Assembly (NCBI RefSeq): GCF_014199915.1
Contig: NZ_JACHOO010000003.1
Span: 387,690-451,689, forward strand
DNA from: Prosthecomicrobium pneumaticum
GTDB lineage: Bacteria; Pseudomonadota; Alphaproteobacteria; Rhizobiales; Kaistiaceae
DNA: 64,000 nucleotides
Direction of reading: 5' to 3'
Part shown: piece after piece, positions 28,041 through 39,806 of the stretch
Position numbering within the stretch: the stretch's first letter is position 1
How the letters are laid out: each line of letters opens with the position of its first letter
Notes under the pieces: generated by a model
The model's database searches: none
Seen by the model: the letters and a program-made list of their open reading frames with translations, nothing else
What the model was told of the DNA's origin: nothing
Made by a program: the position numbers and the translations under genes

Positions 28041-29417
28041 GTGCCGCGGAGCGCCGTCGCCGTCCTCGACATCGGCAAGACCAATGCGAAGCTCGCCCTT
28101 GTCGACCGGGAGAGCGGCGCGCTCGTCGATCGCATCGCGACACCGAACACGGTCGTGCGCGGCGACGTCTATCCGCATTATGACGTCGAGCGCCTCGCCG
28201 CCTTCCTGTTCGACGGGCTCGCCGCCTTCGCCCGAAACGCGACGATCGAGGTGATCTCGACGACGACGCATGGGGCGGCGGTCGCGCTCCTCGACGCCGA
28301 GGGGCTGGTCCTGCCCATCCTCGATTACGAGCATCCGGGTCCCGATGCGGTCGCGCAGGCCTATCGGAGCCTGCGCGGCGACTTCTGGGAGACCTTTTCG
28401 CCAGACCTTCCGGCCGGGCTCAATGTCGGCCGGCAGCTCTACTGGCTCGAGGAGACCTTTCCCGCCGCCTTCGACCGGGCGAGCGCGATCCTTCTCTATC
28501 CGCAATACTGGGTCTGGCGGCTCTGCGGGGCGCTGGTCTGCGAGCCGACCTCGCTCGGTTGCCACACCGACCTGTGGAACCCGCGGGCGGGCGGCTTCTC
28601 GCGTCTCGCCGTCGATCGCGGCTGGGCGCGGCGGATCCCGCCGCTCGTCCATCCCTCCGATACCGCCGGGCCGATCCGCCCGGAGCTCGCCGACCGGCTC
28701 GGCCTGCCGCGCGGCTGCCGCGTCGTCGCCGGCATCCACGATTCGAATGCCAGCCTGCTGCCGCACATCGTCGCCCGACGGCCGCCCTTCGCGGTGCTCT
28801 CCTCCGGCACATGGCTGATTCATTTCGCGGTCGGCGGCTCGATCGAGGGGCTCGACCCGGCGCGCGACTGCCTCGCCAACACCGATGCCTTCGGCCGCCC
28901 CGTGCCCTCGGCGCGCTATATGGCGGGGCGCGAATACGACATTCTGACCGGCGGCCTGCGGGGCGAGCCGACGCCGGCCGAGATCGCCCGCGTCGTTGCG
29001 GCCGGCATCATGGCGCTGCCGTCATTCGCCGGCCGGACCGGGCCGTTCGGCCTCGGCGAGGGCCGCTGGACGGTCGATCCGGCGACGCTGTCGGCGGGCG
29101 AGCGGATCGCCGCGGCGAGCCTCTACTCCGCGCTCGTCTCGACGACCTGTCTTGCGCTCACCGGGGCGGACGGACCTTCGATCGTCGAGGGGCCGGTCTC
29201 GCGGAACGCCGTCTACCTCGCCGCGCTCGCCCGCCTGACCGGCCGGCCGGTGATCGCCCGGCCCGACGCGACCGGCACCACGGAGGGCGCCGCCCTGCTC
29301 GCCGCCGGCCCGCGGGCGGCACCGCCCCCGCTCGACGACCCCGCCCCGGTCGCGCCCCTGCCGATCGACCTGTCCGCCTATGCGGCGGCGTGGCGAAGGG
29401 CGGCGGAGGAGGGGTAG
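28041..29417 (+). CDS. rhaK: FGGY-family sugar kinase of the rhamnose-type locus
   Basis: The 458-residue product has the ATP-binding start AVLDIGKTNAKLALVD (phosphate 1 motif), TTTHGAAVALLDAEG, CHTDLWNP and the FGGY segments VAGIHDSNAS and LSSGTWLIHF, typical of the rhamnulokinase-related FGGY kinases of rhizobia. It phosphorylates the ketose from rhamnose. In Rhizobium leguminosarum RhaK is also required for transporter activity. I use the GTG at 28041 because it lies right before the domain; no ATG upstream is in frame. Repeats on both sides separate it from rhaS, so it may be expressed at a different level. Confidence 0.85.
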   Translation: MPRSAVAVLDIGKTNAKLALVDRESGALVDRIATPNTVVRGDVYPHYDVERLAAFLFDGLAAFARNATIEVISTTTHGAAVALLDAEGLVLPILDYEHPGPDAVAQAYRSLRGDFWETFSPDLPAGLNVGRQLYWLEETFPAAFDRASAILLYPQYWVWRLCGALVCEPTSLGCHTDLWNPRAGGFSRLAVDRGWARRIPPLVHPSDTAGPIRPELADRLGLPRGCRVVAGIHDSNASLLPHIVARRPPFAVLSSGTWLIHFAVGGSIEGLDPARDCLANTDAFGRPVPSARYMAGREYDILTGGLRGEPTPAEIARVVAAGIMALPSFAGRTGPFGLGEGRWTVDPATLSAGERIAAASLYSALVSTTCLALTGADGPSIVEGPVSRNAVYLAALARLTGRPVIARPDATGTTEGAALLAAGPRAAPPPLDDPAPVAPLPIDLSAYAAAWRRAAEEG

Positions 29418-29807: not shown

Positions 29808-30653
29808 CTACGCCTCGCCGCGCAGCCGCTCGAGCGCGGCGAGGCGGTCGCGGGCCGCTTCGCCGCGCTCCGCCACCACGGCGGCGACGAGCGCCTCGGC
29901 GACCGCCATCAGCGCCGCGGAGGAATCCCACACCGAGGGCACGACGACATGCGCCGGCAGCACGTGTTTCGCGACCTTGGAGATCGGCGACAGCCACTGG
30001 TCGGTCATCAGCACGATCGATGCGCCGCGCTCCGCCGCCCGCTCGGCGAGGGCGAGGAGGTCGCGCGAATAGCGGCGGATGTCGAAGATCAACAGCACGT
30101 CGCGGCGGCCGACATCGAGCAGCCGGTCGCGCCAGGCCTCCGGCTGGCCGGTCATGCGGCGGACCTGCGGCCGCAGCACGCGCAGATGCGCGGCCATATA
30201 TTCGGCGAGCGGGTCCGTGAAGCGGCCCCCGAGCAGGTGCAGCGGCCGCCGCGGATCGGCGAGGAGATGCGCCGCGGCGGCGAATTCGGCGCGCGGCAGA
30301 TTGGCCATCGTCTCGGCCAGATTGGCGGCGGCCGCCGCGGTAAAGGCCGCGAGCAGGTCGTCGCCGGCCGCCGCGCCGGCGAGCCCCTTGGTGAGCGGCG
30401 GCGCGGCCCGCGCGGCGAGTTCCGCCTTCAGCGCATCCTGGAAGGCGCCATAGCTCGGGAAACCGAGCTTCGCCACCATGCGCAGGACGGTCGGGGCGGA
30501 GACGCCCGCCGCCTCGCCGAAGCGGGCGGTCGTGTCGAGCCCGGCGAGCGGATAATCGGCAAGCAGACGATGCGCCGCGCGCCGCTCGTTCGGTGTCATC
30601 CGGTCGAGCGCGCGGCGAAGGCTGTCCGCGACCGAGGCCGTCCCGCTCGTCAT
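29808..30653 (-). CDS. MurR/RpiR-family transcriptional regulator
   Basis: The 281-residue product has an N-terminal RpiR helix-turn-helix (MTPNERRAAHRLLADYP, then TTARFGEAAGVSAPTVLRMVAKLGFPSYGAFQDALKAEL) and a SIS sugar-isomerase-like domain from about residue 120 (HLLGGRFTDPLAEYMAAHL, LLIFDIRRYSRDLLALAERAAERGASIVLMTDQWLSPI). It normally senses a small phosphorylated or charged ligand. It is divergent from the amidohydrolase-TRAP-ligase operon, with a near-perfect 23-bp palindrome between them, so it probably controls that operon. Confidence 0.9.
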   Translation of the reverse strand: MTSGTASVADSLRRALDRMTPNERRAAHRLLADYPLAGLDTTARFGEAAGVSAPTVLRMVAKLGFPSYGAFQDALKAELAARAAPPLTKGLAGAAAGDDLLAAFTAAAAANLAETMANLPRAEFAAAAHLLADPRRPLHLLGGRFTDPLAEYMAAHLRVLRPQVRRMTGQPEAWRDRLLDVGRRDVLLIFDIRRYSRDLLALAERAAERGASIVLMTDQWLSPISKVAKHVLPAHVVVPSVWDSSAALMAVAEALVAAVVAERGEAARDRLAALERLRGEA

Positions 30654-30686
30654 CCATGCCTCCTGCCCAATCGGTATGCGTGTGAT

Positions 30687-30709
30687 GCCGTCATTTCAGA
30701 ATTGACGGC
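30687..30709. promoter_or_regulatory. 23-bp near-perfect palindrome, candidate RpiR operator
   Basis: GCCGTCA-T-TTC-A-GAA-T-TGACGGC: ten of eleven base pairs are symmetric. It overlaps a TTGACG (30702-30707) that could be the forward -35, and lies 34 bases before the rpiR start. Position, length and symmetry all suit a regulator of both genes. Regulator identity is inferred. Confidence 0.6.
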
Positions 30710-30794
30710 CTCGGCGCTTATTGTAACGTCTATTCCAGAGCGGCGCACAAGATCGGAAAGCGATCGGCGCCGCGGGAATGCGGGGAAATCGGAC

Positions 30795-31589
30795 GTGACG
30801 TCTGGACTTCTGGCCGAGGGTGAGGCGTCGCCCGTCGAGCGGATCGACGGGACCGGCGGCGCTTATGTCTTCGTCTGCGAACATGCCTCGAACCGGCTGC
30901 CGGCGTCGCTCGGCGATCTCGGCCTGCCGGCCGAGGCGCTGCGCGCGCACATCGCCTGGGACCCCGGCGCCGCGGCGATGACGCGCCGTCTCGCCGCGCA
31001 TTTCTCGGGCGACGCGGTGCTGCAGCGATATTCCCGTCTGGTGGTCGACTGCAACCGCGATCCGGACAGGCCGGACGCGATCAGCACCCTTTCCGAGACG
31101 ACGCCGATCCCCGGCAATGCCGGCCTCTCCGAGGCGGCGCGCGCCGCGCGCATCGCCGGCTGCTGGACGCCCTTCCACGCCGCGGTGGAGGCGCTCGTGA
31201 CCGGGCGGCTCGAGGCCGGGCGGCCGACCGCGCTCGTCACGGTGCACTCCTTCACGCCGGTGTTCCGCGGCGTCGCACGGCCCTGGCATGTCGGCCTGAT
31301 CACGACCGAGGACCGCCGCCTCGCCGATCCGATGCGCGTCGCGCTCGCCGCCGATCCCGCGCTCGTCGTCGGCGACAACGAGCCTTACTCGGCGAAGGAC
31401 CATGTCGACTACACGATCCGCCGGCACGGTCTCCTGCGCGGCATTCCGCACGTCATGATCGAGGTCCGCAACGACCTCGTCGCCGATGCGGCGGGCGTCG
31501 AGGCCTGGGCCGACCGGCTCGCGCGGGCGATCGAGGTCTTCGTCATGCCGGAGGCGGCGATGCAGAACCGGAGCGAGCGGCATGCCTGA
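30795..31589 (+). CDS. N-formylglutamate amidohydrolase-like enzyme
   Basis: The 264-residue product opens after a short tail with AYVFVCEHASNRLPASLG, the family's CEHASN metal-binding signature, then AWDPGAAAM and VVDCNRDPDRPDAI, and later LVTVHSFTPVF (second conserved His region). The known members hydrolyse N-formylglutamate to glutamate and formate (HutG); distant members are used on other glutamyl amides. No hut genes are near. The GTG start at 30795 follows GGGGAAATCGGAC; an ATG in another frame upstream is not usable. Overlaps dctQ by 8 bases. In this operon I suspect it frees glutamate from a gamma-glutamyl product (inference). Confidence 0.82.
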   Translation: MTSGLLAEGEASPVERIDGTGGAYVFVCEHASNRLPASLGDLGLPAEALRAHIAWDPGAAAMTRRLAAHFSGDAVLQRYSRLVVDCNRDPDRPDAISTLSETTPIPGNAGLSEAARAARIAGCWTPFHAAVEALVTGRLEAGRPTALVTVHSFTPVFRGVARPWHVGLITTEDRRLADPMRVALAADPALVVGDNEPYSAKDHVDYTIRRHGLLRGIPHVMIEVRNDLVADAAGVEAWADRLARAIEVFVMPEAAMQNRSERHA

Positions 31590-32094
31590 ACCGATCAAGG
31601 CCTTCGTGCGCGCCGTCGACCGGATCAATCTGGCGGTCGGCCGCTTCGCGATGGGGCTGTTCTTCGTGCTCGCGGCGATCCTGCTGTGGTCGACATTGTC
31701 GCGCGTCGTGCTCGGCGTGCCGGTCAACTGGGCACTCGAAGCCTCGCAATTCGTGCTCTCGGCCTATTACCTGCTCGGCGGCGCCTATTCCTTCCAGCAG
31801 GGCGCGCATGTCCGGATGGATCTCTTCTACGACCGGCTGTCGGCGCGCCGGCGTGCCGTGACCGATGCGATCACCATCCTCTTCGTCATCGCCTTCCTCG
31901 TTGTGCTCCTCGCCGGCGGCATTTCGAGCACGCATTACGCCTTCACCTTCGGGCAGAAGAACTACACCGCCTGGGCGCCGCCGCTCTGGCCGATCAAGCT
32001 CGTCATGACGATCGGCGTGCTGCTCATGCTCCTGCAGGCGATCGCCAGCTTCTTCAAGGATCTCGCGATCGCGCGGGGGAGGCCCTTCGCATGA
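31582..32094 (+). CDS. dctQ: TRAP transporter small permease (DctQ)
   Basis: The 170-residue product has four membrane helices in the DctQ pattern: FAMGLFFVLAAILLWSTLSRVVLG, NWALEASQFVLSAYYLLGGAYSFQQGAHVRMDLFYDRL (family motif GA-H-RMDLFY), and two more. It pairs with the large permease. Start ATG overlaps the amidohydrolase stop, coupling translation. It ends overlapping dctM (ATGA). Confidence 0.93.
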   Translation: MPEPIKAFVRAVDRINLAVGRFAMGLFFVLAAILLWSTLSRVVLGVPVNWALEASQFVLSAYYLLGGAYSFQQGAHVRMDLFYDRLSARRRAVTDAITILFVIAFLVVLLAGGISSTHYAFTFGQKNYTAWAPPLWPIKLVMTIGVLLMLLQAIASFFKDLAIARGRPFA

Positions 32095-33416
32095 GTTCGG
32101 AGCTCATAACGCTCTTCATGTTCGCGACGATGATGCTGCTGCTCGCGACCGGGCAGCGTGTCTTCGGCGTGATCGGCTTCGTCGGCACGATCGCCGCGCT
32201 CTGGCTGTGGGGCGACGGCGCCTTCGAGATGCCGTTCAACGCCACCTTCCAGGTGCTCAACTGGTATCCGCTGATCACCGTGCCCTTCTTCGTCTTCATG
32301 GGCTATGTGCTGTCGGAATCGGGCATCGCCGGCAATCTCTACCGGATGTTCCATGTCTGGTTCGGGCCGGTGCGCGGCGGCCTGGCGCTCGGCACGATCG
32401 GCCTGATGGTGGTGATTTCCTGCATGAACGGCCTGTCGGTCGCCGGCATGGCGATCGGCGCCACCGTGGCGCTGCCGGAACTGCTGCGCCGCCGCTACGA
32501 CAAGGTGCTGATCACCGGCGTGATCCAGGGCGGCTCCTCGCTCGGCATCCTCATTCCTCCGAGCGTCGTCCTCGTTCTCTATGCGATGATCGCCCGCCAG
32601 CCCGTGCTGCAATTGTGGCTCGCCGGTATCCTGCCGGGCCTGCTCATGGCGGGCTTGTTCGCCCTCTATATCTACATACGCTGTCGCATCAATCCGGCCC
32701 TCGGTCCGGCGCTCTCAGCCGAAGAACAGGCGCAGATCAGCTGGCGGCAGAGGCTCTCGCTGCTGCGCGAGGGGCTGCTGCCGCTCGCCGTGTTCGGCGT
32801 CATGATGGGGCTGTTCCTCACCGGCGTGACGAGCCTTGTCGAGAGCTCGGCGGTCGGCGCGCTGCTCGCCACGCTCGCTGCGGCGGTCGAGCGGCGGCTG
32901 ACGTGGAAGGTGCTCGAAATCTCGACCCGGAACACGCTGACGATCAGCTGCATGTTCCTCTGGATCATTCTCGGCGCGCTCTGCTTTTCCTCCGTCTATG
33001 ACGGGCTCGGCGCGGTCAAGGCGATCGGCAATCTGCTTCTGAACAGCTGGGATCTGTCGCCCTGGACGATCCTCGTGCTGATGCTGCTCTCCTTCATCGT
33101 GATGGGGATGTTCCTCGACGATACGGCGATGCTCGTCATCGTCGCGCCGCTCTACATCCCGCTCGTCCGGCAGCTCGGCTTCGATGCGATCTGGTTCGGC
33201 ATCCTCTACACGATCACCTGCCAGATCGCCTACATCACCCCGCCCTTCGGCTATAACCTCTTCCTGATGCGCGCGCTGGCGCCGCCCGAGATCACGCTGG
33301 GCGACATCTATCGGTCGATCGTTCCTTTCGCCCTGCTGATGGTTCTCACCATTGTCATTCTGATGATCTTTCCGCAGATCGCGCTCTGGCTGCCGCATCT
33401 CTATTCCGGCCGGTGA
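32091..33416 (+). CDS. dctM: TRAP transporter large permease (DctM)
   Basis: The 441-residue product has about 12 membrane helices and the DctM landmarks VPFFVFMGYVLSESGIA (around residue 65), GLALGTIGLMVV, GGSSLGILIPPSVVLVLYA (around 150) and FIVMGMFLDDTAMLVIVAPLYIPL (around 345). With DctQ and DctP it imports an organic anion or polar compound using the sodium or proton gradient. Confidence 0.94.
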   Translation: MSSELITLFMFATMMLLLATGQRVFGVIGFVGTIAALWLWGDGAFEMPFNATFQVLNWYPLITVPFFVFMGYVLSESGIAGNLYRMFHVWFGPVRGGLALGTIGLMVVISCMNGLSVAGMAIGATVALPELLRRRYDKVLITGVIQGGSSLGILIPPSVVLVLYAMIARQPVLQLWLAGILPGLLMAGLFALYIYIRCRINPALGPALSAEEQAQISWRQRLSLLREGLLPLAVFGVMMGLFLTGVTSLVESSAVGALLATLAAAVERRLTWKVLEISTRNTLTISCMFLWIILGALCFSSVYDGLGAVKAIGNLLLNSWDLSPWTILVLMLLSFIVMGMFLDDTAMLVIVAPLYIPLVRQLGFDAIWFGILYTITCQIAYITPPFGYNLFLMRALAPPEITLGDIYRSIVPFALLMVLTIVILMIFPQIALWLPHLYSGR

Positions 33417-33521
33417 GCCACCAGAGGAGACCTCGAGCGTCGAGTTACTTCCATTTTTTCTACCGGCGGGACGGGGCCTCCGCATCCCGCCGAGGCGACG
33501 ACAACAAAGGAGACAGGGAAG

Positions 33522-34598
33522 ATGAACAGCGACGGCCCCTCGAAGAAGCTGAACAAGCGTGAGTTCCTGAAGTCCGCCGGCCTCGTCACCGCCACCGCGG
33601 CGGGTGCGACGACGCTCGCCGCGCCCTATGTCAAGGCGCAGTCGCCGATCACCTGGCGGCTGCAGACCTATGCCGGCCCGGCGCTCGCCGAACACGTCAT
33701 CAAGCCGTCGATCGACGCCTTCAACAAGGCGGCGAACGGCGAGATGACGATCGAGCTGTTCACGGCCGACCAGCTCGTGCCGCAGGGCGAGCTGTTTCGC
33801 GCCGTCCAGTCCGGCACGATCGACGCGGCGCAGAGCGACGACGATTCGATGGCTTCGCCGGTCGATGTGGCGATCTTCGGCGCGTATTTCCCTTTCGCCT
33901 CGCGTTATTCGCTCGACGTGCCGGTGCTGTGGAACTGGTATGGCCTGAAGGAGATCTGGCAGGAGGCCTATGGCGAGGTCCAGGGTGTCACCTGGCTGTC
34001 GGCCGGCGCCTGGGACCCTTGCAACTTCGTCACCACGAAGCCGATCCGCAGCGTCGCGGATCTGAAGGGCCTGCGCGTCTTTACCTTCCCGACCGGCGGA
34101 CGCTTCCTGACCCGCTTCGGCGTCGTGCCGGTGACGCTGCCCTGGGAAGACATCGAGGTAGCGATCCAGACCGGCGAACTCGACGGCGTCGCCTGGTGCG
34201 GCGCGACCGAGGCTTATACGGTCGGCTGGGCCGACGTGAACAAGTACTACCTCACCAACAACATCAATGGCGCCTGGGCCGGCTCCTATTTCGCCAACAC
34301 CGAGAAGTGGAATGCGCTGCCCGAGCATCTGAAGACGCTGTTCAATCTCGCCATGGACAGCTCGCACTATTACCGGCAGCACTGGTACTGGTGGGGTGAG
34401 GCGCACTACCGGACGACCGGCGGCAAGCTCGAACTGACCACCATTCCCGAGGCGGAGTGGAAGACGGTCGAGGACGAGGCGCTCAAGTTCTGGGACGAGA
34501 TCGCCGCGACCGGCGAGCGCAACAAGAAGGTGGTCGACATCCTGAAGAATTACGCCGAGACCATGCGCAAGGCCGGTGCGCCCTATCGCTACGGCTGA
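33522..34598 (+). CDS. dctP: TRAP transporter substrate-binding protein (DctP)
   Basis: The 358-residue product starts with a Tat-like signal (NKREFLKSAGLVTATAAGATTLAAPYVKAQ; Lys-Arg instead of Arg-Arg). The mature part has ITWRLQTYAGPALAEHVIKP, ADQLVPQGELFRAVQSGTIDAAQSDDD, LKGLRVFTFPTGGRFL and the conserved Arg region of DctP proteins that binds a carboxylate. Its ligand may be a zwitterionic amine or an acid. A 105-base gap with an imperfect hairpin (GGCGGGA...TCCCGCC, about 33460) precedes it. Start follows AAAGGAGACAGGGAAG. Confidence 0.92.
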   Translation: MNSDGPSKKLNKREFLKSAGLVTATAAGATTLAAPYVKAQSPITWRLQTYAGPALAEHVIKPSIDAFNKAANGEMTIELFTADQLVPQGELFRAVQSGTIDAAQSDDDSMASPVDVAIFGAYFPFASRYSLDVPVLWNWYGLKEIWQEAYGEVQGVTWLSAGAWDPCNFVTTKPIRSVADLKGLRVFTFPTGGRFLTRFGVVPVTLPWEDIEVAIQTGELDGVAWCGATEAYTVGWADVNKYYLTNNINGAWAGSYFANTEKWNALPEHLKTLFNLAMDSSHYYRQHWYWWGEAHYRTTGGKLELTTIPEAEWKTVEDEALKFWDEIAATGERNKKVVDILKNYAETMRKAGAPYRYG

Positions 34599-34606
34599 GG
34601 ACGACG

Positions 34607-34631
34607 GGAGGGAGGGCGTCGCCCTCCCTCC
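34607..34631 (+). other. Strong mRNA hairpin after dctP
   Basis: GGAGGGAGGGC and GCCCTCCCTCC form a perfect 11-bp stem with a GTC loop, 8 bases after the dctP stop. There is no T-run, so it is likely an mRNA-stability or processing element that raises the binding protein above the downstream enzymes. Confidence 0.6.
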
Positions 34632-34688
34632 GCCCGACGACGACAGGAAGCCCGCCCGGCACGAACCAGGCGGCACGGGGAGTGACCC

Positions 34689-36053
34689 ATGAAGGGTGGT
34701 CTGACGCTCGAGGATCTGGCCCGCGCCGTCGACGGCGGTGCGATCGACACCGTCGTGGTGTGCTTTCCCGACATGCAGGGCCGGCTGGTCGGCAAGCGCT
34801 TCACCGGGCGCTTCTTCCTCGACGGCGCGCTCGAGGAGACGCACGCCTGCAACTACCTGCTGACCGTCGACATCGACATGGAGCCGGTGCCGGGCTATGC
34901 GGCGGCGAGCTGGGCGAAAGGCTATGGCGATTTCGTGCTGAAGCCCGATCTCGCCACCCTGCGCCGCGTGCCGTGGCTCGAGGGCACCGCGCTCGTCCTC
35001 GCCGATGTCTGCGACCATCACGGCGAGGAATTGCCGCACGCGCCGCGCACGGTCCTCAAGCGGCAGCTGAAGCGGCTCGCCGAACGCGGCATGAAGGCCT
35101 ATTTCGCCTCGGAGCTCGAATTCTACGCCTTCGACGAGACCTATGAATCGGCCGACGCCAAGCATTGGCGGCAGCTGAAGACGATGGGCACCTATATCGA
35201 GGACTACAACGTCTTCCAGACGACGAAGAACGAGCCGCTGCTCAGGGCGATGCGCAACGGCCTCGCCGCCGCCGGCATTCCGGTCGAGAACTCGAAGGGC
35301 GAGTGGGGGCCCGGCCAGGAAGAGCTGAACGTGCGCTATGCCGAGGCGCTCGACATGGCCGACCGGCACGTCTTCATCAAGAATGCGATGAAGGAGATCG
35401 CCCATCTGCAGGGCCGCGCGATCACCTTCATGGCGAAATGGCGCTACGACCTCGCCGGCTCGTCCTGCCACATCCATTCCTCGCTGTGGGATGAGGCGGG
35501 CGAGACGGCGCTCTTCCGCGATGCGGCCGATCCGGACGGCATGTCGGCGCTGATGCGCGCCTATCTCGCGGGCCAGCTCGCACTCTCCTCCGATCTCACC
35601 CTCTTCCTCGCGCCCTACATCAATTCCTACAAGCGCTTCCAGGCCGGCACGTTCGCCCCCACCAAGGCGATCTGGTCGATGGACAACCGCACCGCCGGCT
35701 ATCGCGTCGTCGGCGAGGGCAAGGCGATCCGCACCGAATGCCGGATCGGCGGCGCCGATCTGAACCCTTATCTCGCCTTCGCGGCGCTGCTCGCGGCGGG
35801 GTTGCACGGCATCGAAGGGGCGCTGCCGCTCGAGCCGGCCTTCGTCGGCGACGCCTATGGCGGCGCGGCGCTCAAGGAGATCCCGAAGACGCTGCGCGAC
35901 GCGATCGCCGCGCTCGATGCCTCCGCCCCGCTGCGCGCCGCGCTCGGCGACGATGTCGTCGACCATTATCTGCACACCGCCCGCTGGGAGCAGTTCGAAT
36001 ATGACCGCCGCATCACCGATTGGGAGCTGCAGCGCGGCTTCGAACGGTATTGA
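34689..36053 (+). CDS. Glutamine-synthetase-family ligase (gamma-glutamylamine synthetase-like)
   Basis: The 454-residue product has the GS catalytic fold: FASELEFYAFDE (first metal-binding Glu strand, around residue 138), ENSKGEWGPGQEELNV (second metal site), FMAKWRYDLAGSSCHIHSSLWD (His of GS motif KP/HxH replaced as HIHSSL), and NRTAGYRVVGEGKAIRTECRIGGADLNPYLAFAALLAAGLHG (ATP and Arg region with NPY). The divergence from GlnA and the company of amine-type oxidoreductases match PuuA/IpuC/GlnA4-like enzymes that ligate glutamate to an amine. Start follows GGGGAGTGACCC. No GlnB or adenylylation Tyr is evident. Confidence 0.85.
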   Translation: MKGGLTLEDLARAVDGGAIDTVVVCFPDMQGRLVGKRFTGRFFLDGALEETHACNYLLTVDIDMEPVPGYAAASWAKGYGDFVLKPDLATLRRVPWLEGTALVLADVCDHHGEELPHAPRTVLKRQLKRLAERGMKAYFASELEFYAFDETYESADAKHWRQLKTMGTYIEDYNVFQTTKNEPLLRAMRNGLAAAGIPVENSKGEWGPGQEELNVRYAEALDMADRHVFIKNAMKEIAHLQGRAITFMAKWRYDLAGSSCHIHSSLWDEAGETALFRDAADPDGMSALMRAYLAGQLALSSDLTLFLAPYINSYKRFQAGTFAPTKAIWSMDNRTAGYRVVGEGKAIRTECRIGGADLNPYLAFAALLAAGLHGIEGALPLEPAFVGDAYGGAALKEIPKTLRDAIAALDASAPLRAALGDDVVDHYLHTARWEQFEYDRRITDWELQRGFERY

Positions 36054-36096
36054 CGGACGCCCTGTGTCGATCGGGGAGAAGGTGCGAAACCGTTGC

Positions 36097-36116
36097 GCCA
36101 CCGGGACGCCGGTGGC
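36097..36116 (+). other. Hairpin between the ligase and aldehyde dehydrogenase genes
   Basis: GCCACCGG and CCGGTGGC form a perfect 8-bp stem with a GACG tetraloop. No T-run follows. It may be a second processing or attenuation point in the operon. Confidence 0.45.
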
Positions 36117-36182
36117 ACTCCCCGCCTCATTCTCGACATCGCGCGCCGGCCATGTCCGCGCTCGCCTGCTGAAAGGGAGATC

Positions 36183-37586
36183 ATGAACGCGCCCGTGCTC
36201 CGAATCGTCACGCCGGTCGACGGCTCCGTCTATGCCGAGCGGCCGCTCGCCGGCCCCGCCGAGGCGATCGCCACGCTCGAACGGGCCCGTGCCGCGCAGC
36301 GCGACTGGCGCTCCGTGCCGCTCGCCGAGCGGCTCGTCGTCGCAACCGCCTTCGTCGATGCCATGCTCGCGGAGAAGGAGAAGGTGGGCGAGCTGATCAC
36401 CTGGCAGATGGGCCGGCCCGCCCGCTATGCGCAGGGCGAGATGCGCGGCTTCGAGGAGCGCGCCCGCTACATGATCGCGATCGCGGAAGAAGCGCTCGCC
36501 GATGTCGTGCCGAGCCCGCGCGAGGGCTTCAGGCGCTATCTGAAGCGCGAGCCGCTCGGCGTCTGCCTCAACCTGCCGGCCTGGAACTATCCCTATATGA
36601 CGGCCCTCAATGCCGTCCTGCCCGCCGTCATCGCCGGCAATGCGGTGGTGATGAAGCATTCGAGCCAGACCGCGCTGGTCGGCGAGCATTTCGCGTCGGC
36701 TTTCGCCAGAGCCGGTCTGCCGGACGGGGTGTTCCAGTATCTCCACATGGACCACGCCACCACCGAGACGGCGATCGCCTCCGGCCTCGTCGATCAGGTC
36801 GGCTTCACCGGCTCCGTCGCCGGCGGGCGGGCGGTGATGGCCGCGGTCGCCCGCGCGCCGAACTTCCCCGCGACGACGCTCGAGCTCGGCGGCAAGGATC
36901 CCGCCTATGTCCGCGCCGACGCCGACCTTGCCTATGCGATCGAGAACATCGTCGACGGCGGCTTCTTCAATTCCGGCCAGTGCTGCTGCGCCATGGAGCG
37001 GGTCTATGTCGACGCCGCGGTCTATGACGATTTCGTCGCCGGCGTTGTCGAGACGGTCTACGGCTACCGGCTCGGCGATCCGACCGACCCGGAGACCACG
37101 CTCGGGCCGCTGGTGCGCGCCTCGGCGGCGGATTTCGTCCGCGACCAGGTCGAGGAGGCCGTGCGCGCGGGCGCGACGCCGCTGATCGACGCGGCCCGCT
37201 TCCCGCAGGCGAGGGCGGGCACGCCCTATCTGGCACCGCAGGTGCTCGTCGGGGTCGATCATTCGATGCGGCTGATGACCGAGGAGACCTTCGGCCCGGC
37301 GCTCGGTATCATGAAGGTCCATTCGGACGAGGAGGCGGTCCGGCTGATGAACGACAGCCCCTATGGCCTGACCGCGGCGATATGGACCGAGGATGTCGCG
37401 GCGGCGGAGCGGATCGGCGATGCGATCGAGACCGGCACGGTGTTCATGAACCGCTGCGACTATGTCGATCCGGGCCTTGCCTGGACCGGGGTGAAGCAGA
37501 CCGGGCGCGGCGCCTCGCTGTCGCGCGTCGGCTACGAGCACCTCACCCGGCCGAAGAGCTTTCACCTCAAGACGAGCACCGTCTGA
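36183..37586 (+). CDS. NAD(P)-dependent aldehyde dehydrogenase
   Basis: The 467-residue product has LNLPAWNYPYMTALNAVLPA (cofactor pocket, with catalytic Asn), FTGSVAGGRAVM, LELGGKDPAYV (catalytic Glu) and FFNSGQCCCAMERVYVD (catalytic Cys around residue 282). It is of ordinary family length. Aldehyde specificity is not readable, but its place between a glutamyl ligase and an alcohol dehydrogenase suits oxidation of an aldehyde derived from an amino alcohol. I start at the ATG at 36183 behind GAAAGGGAGATC; upstream frame is open but unsupported. Confidence 0.92.
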   Translation: MNAPVLRIVTPVDGSVYAERPLAGPAEAIATLERARAAQRDWRSVPLAERLVVATAFVDAMLAEKEKVGELITWQMGRPARYAQGEMRGFEERARYMIAIAEEALADVVPSPREGFRRYLKREPLGVCLNLPAWNYPYMTALNAVLPAVIAGNAVVMKHSSQTALVGEHFASAFARAGLPDGVFQYLHMDHATTETAIASGLVDQVGFTGSVAGGRAVMAAVARAPNFPATTLELGGKDPAYVRADADLAYAIENIVDGGFFNSGQCCCAMERVYVDAAVYDDFVAGVVETVYGYRLGDPTDPETTLGPLVRASAADFVRDQVEEAVRAGATPLIDAARFPQARAGTPYLAPQVLVGVDHSMRLMTEETFGPALGIMKVHSDEEAVRLMNDSPYGLTAAIWTEDVAAAERIGDAIETGTVFMNRCDYVDPGLAWTGVKQTGRGASLSRVGYEHLTRPKSFHLKTSTV

Positions 37587-37624
37587 CGGCGGCGGCGCCG
37601 AAGACGGAGAGAACAGGACCGATC

Positions 37625-38800
37625 ATGCTCGACCGCTATCCTTCCCTGACCGCCAACTGGTCCTACCCGACCGCCGTCCGTTTCGGCCCGGGGCGCATCG
37701 CGATGCTGCCGGAGGCACTCGCGAGCGCCGGCATCGCGAAGCCGCTCTTCGTCACCGATCCGGGCCTCGCCGCCCTGCCGATCGTCGGGAAGGCGCTCGC
37801 CATCCTCGCCGGCTCAGGCGTCGCGACGGCGGTGTTCTCGAAGGTCGACGGCAATCCGACGCTCGCCAATCTCGAGGACGGGCTCGCCGCCTATCGCGCC
37901 GGCGGCCATGACGGCGTGATCGCCTTCGGCGGCGGCTCCGCTATGGATGTCGGCAAGACGATCGCCTTCATGAGCGGCCAGACCCGGCCGGTCTGGGACT
38001 TCGAGGATCGCGAGGACTGGTGGACGCGCGCCGATCCCGCCGGCATCGCGCCGATCGTCGCCGTGCCGACGACGGCCGGCACGGGCTCCGAGGTCGGCCG
38101 CGCCGCGGTGATCACCGATCCGGCCGACCATACGAAGAAGATCATCTTCCATCCGCTGATGCTGCCGAAAGTGGTCATTTCCGACCCCGAGCTGATGCTC
38201 GACCTGCCGGCGAAGATCACCGCCTGGACCGGCATGGACGCGCTCTCCCATGCGCTCGAGGCCTATTCGAGCCCGTTCTTCCATCCGATGAGCCAGGGCA
38301 TCGCGCTCGAGGCGATGCGCCTCGTCAAGGAATGGCTGCCGGTCGCGGTGAAGGACGGCCGCGCGGTCGAGGCGCGCGCCTTCATGCTCGTCGCCTCCTC
38401 GATGGGCGCGGTCGCCTTCCAGAAGGGGCTCGGCGCGATGCACGCGATGAGCCATCCCTGTTCGAGCCTGCGGGGCACGCATCACGGGCTCACCAACGCG
38501 GTGGTGATGCCCTATGTGCTCGCCTTCAATGCGCCGGCGATCGGCGACAAGCTTTCCGCGCTCGCCCGCTATCTCGACCTGCCGGGCTCCGGAGCGCCGG
38601 CCGTGATCGACTGGGTGCTGCGGCTGCGCTCCGATCTCGGCATCCCCTCGACGCTGAAGGAGATCGGCGTCGATCTCGACGTTCTGCCCGAGGCGGCGCG
38701 GATGGCGGAGCACGATCCCTCGACCGGCGGCAATCCGGTCGCGGTGACGGCGAAGGACTACGAAATCCTTTTCCGCGACGCGATCGAGGGCCGGCTCTGA
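37625..38800 (+). CDS. Iron-containing alcohol dehydrogenase (group III)
   Basis: The 391-residue product has the NAD loop GGGSAMDVGKTIAF (around residue 103), TTAGTGSEVGRAAVI and the iron ligands: Asp and His in TGMDALSHALEAY and the His residues in GLGAMHAMSHPCSSLRGTHHGLTNA (around 275-295). It oxidises an alcohol to an aldehyde. Its place at the end of the operon, directly after the aldehyde dehydrogenase, gives a two-step alcohol to acid route. It starts behind GGAGAGAACAGGACCGATC. Confidence 0.92.
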   Translation: MLDRYPSLTANWSYPTAVRFGPGRIAMLPEALASAGIAKPLFVTDPGLAALPIVGKALAILAGSGVATAVFSKVDGNPTLANLEDGLAAYRAGGHDGVIAFGGGSAMDVGKTIAFMSGQTRPVWDFEDREDWWTRADPAGIAPIVAVPTTAGTGSEVGRAAVITDPADHTKKIIFHPLMLPKVVISDPELMLDLPAKITAWTGMDALSHALEAYSSPFFHPMSQGIALEAMRLVKEWLPVAVKDGRAVEARAFMLVASSMGAVAFQKGLGAMHAMSHPCSSLRGTHHGLTNAVVMPYVLAFNAPAIGDKLSALARYLDLPGSGAPAVIDWVLRLRSDLGIPSTLKEIGVDLDVLPEAARMAEHDPSTGGNPVAVTAKDYEILFRDAIEGRL

Positions 38801-38909: not shown

Positions 38910-39806
38910 ATGTTCCAGCTCGCCCATCTCTCGGACCCGCATCTCGGGCCGCTGCCGAAGCCGAAGACCCTCGAACTCGCCTCCAAGCGCTTCTTCGGCT
39001 ACGTCAACTGGCAGCGCAACCGCATCAAGGCGCTCGCCGGCCCGATCCTCGCCGACCTGATCGAGGACATGCGCGGTCAGGCGCCCGACCATGTCGCCGT
39101 GACCGGCGATCTCGTCAACATCGCGCTGCCTCAGGAGATCGCTGCCGCCGCCCTCTGGCTCGAGGCGCTCGGTCCGCCGCATCACGTGAGCGTGGTGCCG
39201 GGCAATCACGACGCCTATGTGCCGGGCGCCCTCAAGGCGGCCTGTCGCGCCTGGCGGCCCTATCTGCTCGGAGACGAGGGCGCGCTGCACGAGCGCGTCA
39301 CCTTCCCCTTCGTGCGCCGCCGGGGACCCGTGGGGCTCGTCTGCCTTTCGACCGCGCAGGCCTCCGCGCCGCTGATGGCGACCGGCACGGTGCCGCCGAC
39401 CGAGCTCGATCTCGCGGGGGAAGCGCTCGCCCGGCTGCGCGCCGAAGGCCTGTTCCGCGTCGTGCTGATCCATCATCCGCCCTTCAAGGACGCCACCGCC
39501 TGGCACAAGCGCCTGATCGGCTCGGGCCGGGTGCGGGCGATGCTGCGGCAGCACGGCGCCGAGCTGGTCCTGCACGGCCATACCCATCTCGACACCTTCG
39601 TGCGCATCGACGGGCCGGACGGGCCGATCCCCGTCGTCGGCGTGCCCTCCGCATCCAATGCGCCGGGCGGCGAGAAGCCGGCGGCGCGCTACAATCTGTT
39701 CCGGATCGAGGGGGAGCCGGGTGCCTGGCGCTGCCTGCAGGTCGAGCGCGGCTATGGCGACGAGGGCGCCGCTATCGGCACGGTGCGCGAGCGGCGGGTC
39801 GCGTGA
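38910..39806 (+). CDS. Metallophosphoesterase (CpdA-like)
   Basis: The 298-residue product shows all calcineurin-like motifs: LSDPHLG (DxH), VAVTGDLVN (GDxxN), VPGNHDAYV (GNHD), VLIHHPPF and LHGHTHLDTF (GHxH). Family members hydrolyse phosphodiesters such as cAMP or lipid-linked substrates; the substrate is not determinable here. It is transcribed alone 109 bases after the alcohol dehydrogenase. The start is ATG at 38910 without a strong Shine-Dalgarno. Confidence 0.85.
   Translation: MFQLAHLSDPHLGPLPKPKTLELASKRFFGYVNWQRNRIKALAGPILADLIEDMRGQAPDHVAVTGDLVNIALPQEIAAAALWLEALGPPHHVSVVPGNHDAYVPGALKAACRAWRPYLLGDEGALHERVTFPFVRRRGPVGLVCLSTAQASAPLMATGTVPPTELDLAGEALARLRAEGLFRVVLIHHPPFKDATAWHKRLIGSGRVRAMLRQHGAELVLHGHTHLDTFVRIDGPDGPIPVVGVPSASNAPGGEKPAARYNLFRIEGEPGAWRCLQVERGYGDEGAAIGTVRERRVA

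Follow-up and report, generated by a model that had tools for sequence, protein, structure and literature searches.

Gene content of the locus

We analyzed a 64,000-nucleotide stretch of the Prosthecomicrobium pneumaticum genome (contig NZ_JACHOO010000003.1, positions 387,690 to 451,689), referred to here as the window, which carries at 29808-38800 an eight-gene cluster that is, very probably, the known gamma-glutamylation-type ethanolamine utilisation operon. The genes named in a preliminary description of this DNA are all present and intact according to their Pfam matches, with an RpiR-type regulator divergent from seven co-directional genes. Their products, among them a tripartite ATP-independent periplasmic (TRAP) importer, are as follows (values are E-values).

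29808-30653, minus strand: RpiR/MurR-type regulator with HTH_6 and SIS domains (PF01418, PF01380), the divergent counterpart of Phaeobacter MED193_10021, in the same divergent position in relatives
30690-30730, no strand assigned: candidate divergent promoter/operator between the RpiR and amidohydrolase genes, with ATTTCAGAATTGACG at 30693-30707
about 30795-31589, plus strand: N-formylglutamate-amidohydrolase-like enzyme, predicted gamma-glutamylglycine amidohydrolase (GGAH; PF05013, 1e-45; closest solved structure 2ODF, Atu2144)
31582-32094, plus strand: TRAP small permease DctQ, EtoV type (PF04290)
32091-33416, plus strand: TRAP large permease DctM, EtoW type (PF06808)
33522-34598, plus strand: TRAP solute-binding protein DctP, EtoX type, predicted ethanolamine binder with platform residue Glu230 (PF03480; 4UAB, 4e-150)
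34689-36053, plus strand: glutamine-synthetase-like ligase, predicted ethanolamine gamma-glutamylase (ETAGA; PF00120, 1.2e-94; 11ZS and 5DM3, tree, active-site residues)
36183-37586, plus strand: aldehyde dehydrogenase, predicted gamma-glutamylacetaldehyde dehydrogenase (GAADDH; PF00171, 5.6e-121; conserved operon position)
37625-38800, plus strand: Fe-containing alcohol dehydrogenase, predicted gamma-glutamylethanolamide dehydrogenase (GETADH; PF00465, PF25137; conserved operon position)

The amidohydrolase gene, whose GTG start is uncertain, overlaps dctQ, which in turn overlaps dctM, while the remaining gaps measure 38-129 bp; these overlaps and short gaps are consistent with a single transcription unit of the seven plus-strand genes. 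Two flanking genes were considered as further members and set aside as outside the conserved set: the upstream FGGY kinase (28056-29417) is close to the operon in Kaistia and in a Bosea-labelled metagenome-assembled genome but nowhere else, and the downstream metallophosphoesterase (38910-39806) is so in no relative.

Elsewhere in the same genome, another PF05013 protein, possibly HutG-like, scores 268 bits against 157 bits for the window amidohydrolase, and a third lies at G000:C3:235420-236037 (L087). The genome also encodes a GlnA and, besides it, two further ligases resembling PuuA. No match to EutB was found in the genome, and a B12-dependent eut route there was rejected on this ground.

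Correspondence with a published ethanolamine operon

In Phaeobacter sp. MED193, a single operon, MED193_10021-10056, encodes, in the order of its locus tags, RpiR, GGAH, EtoV, EtoW, EtoX, ETAGA, GAADDH and GETADH. The levels of several of these proteins increase on phosphorylethanolamine, and for ethanolamine recombinant EtoX has a Kd of 7.9 uM (PMC10132767). Westermann et al. 2023 trace this operon to Vetting et al. 2015, in C. salexigens and A. tumefaciens (PMC10132767). Compared with the published operon and with the copy on the Marinovum plasmid pMaD4, the window genes follow the same order, gene for gene. The locus is thus an ordinary copy of an already published ethanolamine operon, and its gene combination is not new. 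According to the preliminary description, no known route brings together a TRAP importer, an Fe-alcohol dehydrogenase and an amidohydrolase of this type, a claim of novelty that is wrong because the same operon, with exactly these components, has been published for Phaeobacter. The GlnA4 cluster of Streptomyces coelicolor also contradicts it in part, having dehydrogenases together with a formylglutamate-amidohydrolase-family enzyme.

The pathway logic set out in that description, in which an amino alcohol is imported, glutamylated at its amine and oxidised from alcohol through aldehyde to acid before the gamma-glutamyl amide is hydrolysed, has held up well and equals the one that the literature proposes for such an operon, where the substrate is ethanolamine and the products are glycine and glutamate (PMC10132767, PMC9397018). 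The GlnA4 route has been reviewed with the same four enzyme families tabulated, including PF05013 and PF00465 (PMC9397018).

By orthology, we infer the substrate, products, order of steps and regulation of the window operon as follows. Ethanolamine, a component of membrane lipids, would be captured in the periplasm by EtoX (DctP) and imported by EtoVW. The ligase would then couple it to glutamate in an ATP-dependent reaction, yielding gamma-glutamylethanolamide, whose hydroxyl end the Fe-alcohol dehydrogenase and the aldehyde dehydrogenase would oxidise to gamma-glutamylglycine. Finally, the PF05013 hydrolase would free glycine and regenerate glutamate, with RpiR, at the divergent promoter, as the likely substrate-responsive regulator.

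The solute-binding protein

Among solved structures, DctP matches PDB 4UAB/4XF5 at 4e-150, far ahead of the next entry at 6e-16, and its residues 39-357 align with 4UAB at 503 bits (phmmer). 4UAB is Csal_0678 of Chromohalobacter salexigens in complex with ethanolamine, which is held by the platform residue Glu220 and aromatic side chains (PMC12410723). We aligned the window DctP with 4UAB, the proteins of 19 loci and two TRAP paralogues, SiaP itself being left out; window position 230 corresponds to SEQRES position 217 of 4UAB, which a shift of 3 in the numbering makes Glu220. This Glu, the last residue of a G-x-T-E motif, is present in all EtoX-type rows (the 19 loci and 4UAB).

At the position of the carboxylate-binding arginine (Arg147 of SiaP), the window protein has Phe and the EtoX-type rows have Phe or Tyr, whereas both paralogues keep Arg. 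Lack of this arginine is expected where the ligand is not a carboxylate (PMC4646407), and with Phe there DctP would suit a positively charged ligand better than a carboxylate. On the 4UAB match and the missing arginine we rejected an acid-binding TRAP system; DctP does not resemble an acid binder, so that binding of an unrelated acid, an outcome which the preliminary description had named as refuting, looks unlikely.

The ligase

A search of solved structures with the ligase returned 11ZS (7e-207) and 5DM3 (4e-165, 553 bits), all other entries falling below 150 bits. We take 5DM3 to be the neighbouring Chromohalobacter ligase; no paper describing PDB 11ZS was found. In a maximum-likelihood tree of 28 sequences, from which IpuC was left out, the window ligase groups with the Kaistia copies in a clade that includes 5DM3, 11ZS and other eto-operon ligases (99/100 support), next to which branches a Streptomyces plasmid homologue about 40% identical. 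Separate from this clade stand the GlnA proteins of E. coli and of this genome together, and E. coli PuuA with the two further ligases of the genome; GMAS/GlnT and the aniline/naphthylamine ligases likewise fall outside it. The deep order of the tree is unsure, with several long branches.

The active site points the same way. Both acids of the ammonium site are replaced, D50 by Pro, in a column less certain than the others, and E327 by Phe, the residue also reported at this position in GlnA4 (PMC6529630), while the equivalents of the metal- and nucleotide-binding residues E129, E131, E212, E220, H269, H271, R321, R344, E357 and R359 are kept. On the tree position and the loss of D50 and E327 we rejected a true glutamine synthetase or PuuA identity; the ligase does not group with true glutamine synthetases, the outcome that the preliminary description had named as refuting.

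Robbsia andropogonis plasmid p1 (L102, 310-7853) encodes another member of this clade, with 61% identity to the window ligase. Its neighbours there are no dehydrogenases; they comprise an aminotransferase, an O-acetylhomoserine sulfhydrylase-like enzyme, a desaturase-like protein and a PuuD-like hydrolase. This cluster resembles the rhizobitoxine type, which makes a serinol-containing product, and its content hints that an amino alcohol may be protected by gamma-glutamylation during biosynthesis.

Co-conservation and importer exchange

Around the 80 loci fetched by ligase similarity, several of them on truncated contigs, an aldehyde dehydrogenase is encoded nearby in about 73, an Fe-alcohol dehydrogenase in 74, an amidohydrolase in 62 and RpiR in 58-59. 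Dozens of genomes have these genes in the same order, and the full operon is carried by many Alphaproteobacteria and by pMaD4 of Marinovum (Roseobacteraceae), there at 43-70% identity to the window; the cluster is therefore far from chance, and the genes are co-conserved, a lack of which the preliminary description had named as refuting.

The TRAP binding protein follows another pattern, being present in only 18 of the 80 loci. Where it is missing, the slot between amidohydrolase and ligase is usually taken by an APC permease, similar to a TIGR00907-like permease in 47 loci and to a TIGR00908-matching protein in 6. Such replacement is seen in Kaistia, Mesorhizobium and Phyllobacterium, and examples of the slot are L005 (6243-7823), L015 (6408-7922) and L027 (6359-7915). 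In some Phyllobacteriaceae the protein in this slot matches TIGR00908, the ethanolamine permease family, at 1e-111, and its placement there is independent support for ethanolamine as the probable substrate. Of 28 Kaistiaceae genomes, that of the window included, 23 have the ligase but 6 have EtoX; the 14 genomes of one genus, apparently Kaistia from the named loci, have the ligase and no EtoX.

Because the enzymes are widely kept together while TRAP is often replaced by APC permeases, the enzymatic core is a stable unit around which importers are exchanged. This swap between TRAP, APC and ethanolamine-permease-family importers is a modest comparative point. In two Pseudomonas loci (L061, L078), homologues of EtoX, EtoW and EtoV are encoded divergently, 3-6 kb from the ligase and outside the operon.

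Substrate and alternative readings

The analysis shows which genes are present and in what order, their orthology and co-conservation, and the residues of the pocket and the active site; ethanolamine is the most likely substrate of the pathway that these genes would encode. Three points weigh against this assignment. Around the platform Glu the window EtoX reads GATEA, as against GITE plus one variable residue in almost all relatives, so that its pocket differs there. The TIGR00908 match, at 373.8 bits, is just under the curated cut-off of 381.75. Lastly, the later steps of the published pathway are partly prediction: Krysenko 2019 describes the C. salexigens pathway as predicted in silico, whereas Westermann 2023 describes it as demonstrated (PMC10132767).

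The first of these points makes another amino alcohol conceivable, although we regard this as unlikely. The same set of enzymes would then act with an importer and ligase tuned to, for example, 2-amino-1-propanol (alaninol) or serinol; gamma-glutamylalanine or gamma-glutamylserine would be formed, from which the free amino acid would be released. The Ile-to-Ala exchange two residues before the platform Glu, found in the window EtoX only among the orthologues compared, could enlarge the pocket, and the same-clade ligase in the Robbsia cluster also speaks for such a substrate. However, the remainder of EtoX closely follows 4UAB, and Kaistia copies with 77-78% identity to the window ligase are accompanied by an importer unrelated to EtoVWX, a point in favour of a conserved core substrate.

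Far less probable is the proposal of the preliminary description, a new gamma-glutamylation pathway for an imported amine: the gene content fits a route of this kind, but the operon, its order and its importer are published for ethanolamine, and both the binding protein and the ligase have close homologues of solved structure. Equally improbable is an operon of a glutamine synthetase or PuuA-type polyamine ligase with an acid-importing TRAP, for which the PF00120 match and the NCBIfam matches to gln_synth_III, GlnA and GGputSyn, none of which comes near its cut-off, could be cited, but against which stand the tree and active site of the ligase, the separate GlnA and PuuA-like ligases of the genome and the missing arginine of DctP.

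With ethanolamine as the preferred substrate, the locus can carry the substrate-level names etoVWX, GGAH, ETAGA, GAADDH and GETADH in place of "glutamine synthetase", "N-formylglutamate amidohydrolase" and "dicarboxylate transporter". For the ligase, the hydrolase and the binding protein alike, every NCBIfam model of equivalog level stays under its cut-off, so that misnaming of operons of this kind remains likely.

Candidate regulatory elements

The 15-mer ATTTCAGAATTGACG in the divergent intergenic region lies inside an inverted repeat, GCCGTCA-N9-TGACGGC (7-bp arms in the window), with TAACGT about 16 nt further on, and overlaps a TTGAC box. It occurs exactly once in the window, against 0 expected, and several Kaistia relatives have it in the corresponding position. 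From these features, the region is a plausible promoter/operator. A scan with the sigma-70 consensus returned no promoter-like sites on the plus strand, and a terminator consensus scan found 6 sites versus 3.5 expected, all within genes or on the other strand.

The RpiR-amidohydrolase intergenic regions of Mesorhizobium-type loci (for example L015, L059 and L072) carry a different, conserved arrangement, TTGAC ... TGTAT(G/C)AAATCAT, partly palindromic and followed by GTAACAAA. This block is common to many relatives, is unlike the motif of Kaistia and the window in sequence, and is possibly a lineage-specific RpiR operator.

Comparison with known systems

The closest known system is the MED193 operon, with the same genes, order, predicted substrate and steps and no material difference seen, a link that rests on the published gene order and the Marinovum copy (43-70% identity) and not on MED193 sequences. 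Also close is the Chromohalobacter ethanolamine pathway (Vetting 2015), whose Csal_0678 (4UAB/4XF5) and ligase (structure 5DM3) are close homologues of the window DctP (503 bits) and ligase (553 bits). Csal_0678 and the window protein have the platform Glu in common and both lack the arginine; they differ around the Glu, with GITED in the former and GATEA in the latter.

The S. coelicolor GlnA4 cluster, SCO1610-1615, likewise combines a gamma-glutamylethanolamide synthetase bearing Phe for E327 with two dehydrogenases and a formylglutamate-amidohydrolase-family enzyme (PMC6529630). It differs in lacking a TRAP importer (related species have a permease), in its regulator, EpuRI, and in its deep sequence divergence. 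The Puu pathway of E. coli (puuPADRCBE) follows the same logic of gamma-glutamylation, oxidation and hydrolysis, but acts on putrescine, with the importer PuuP, the oxidase PuuB, a hydrolase of another family (PuuD) and a ligase of another clade. The cobalamin-dependent eut system (EutBC) acts on the same substrate through different chemistry.

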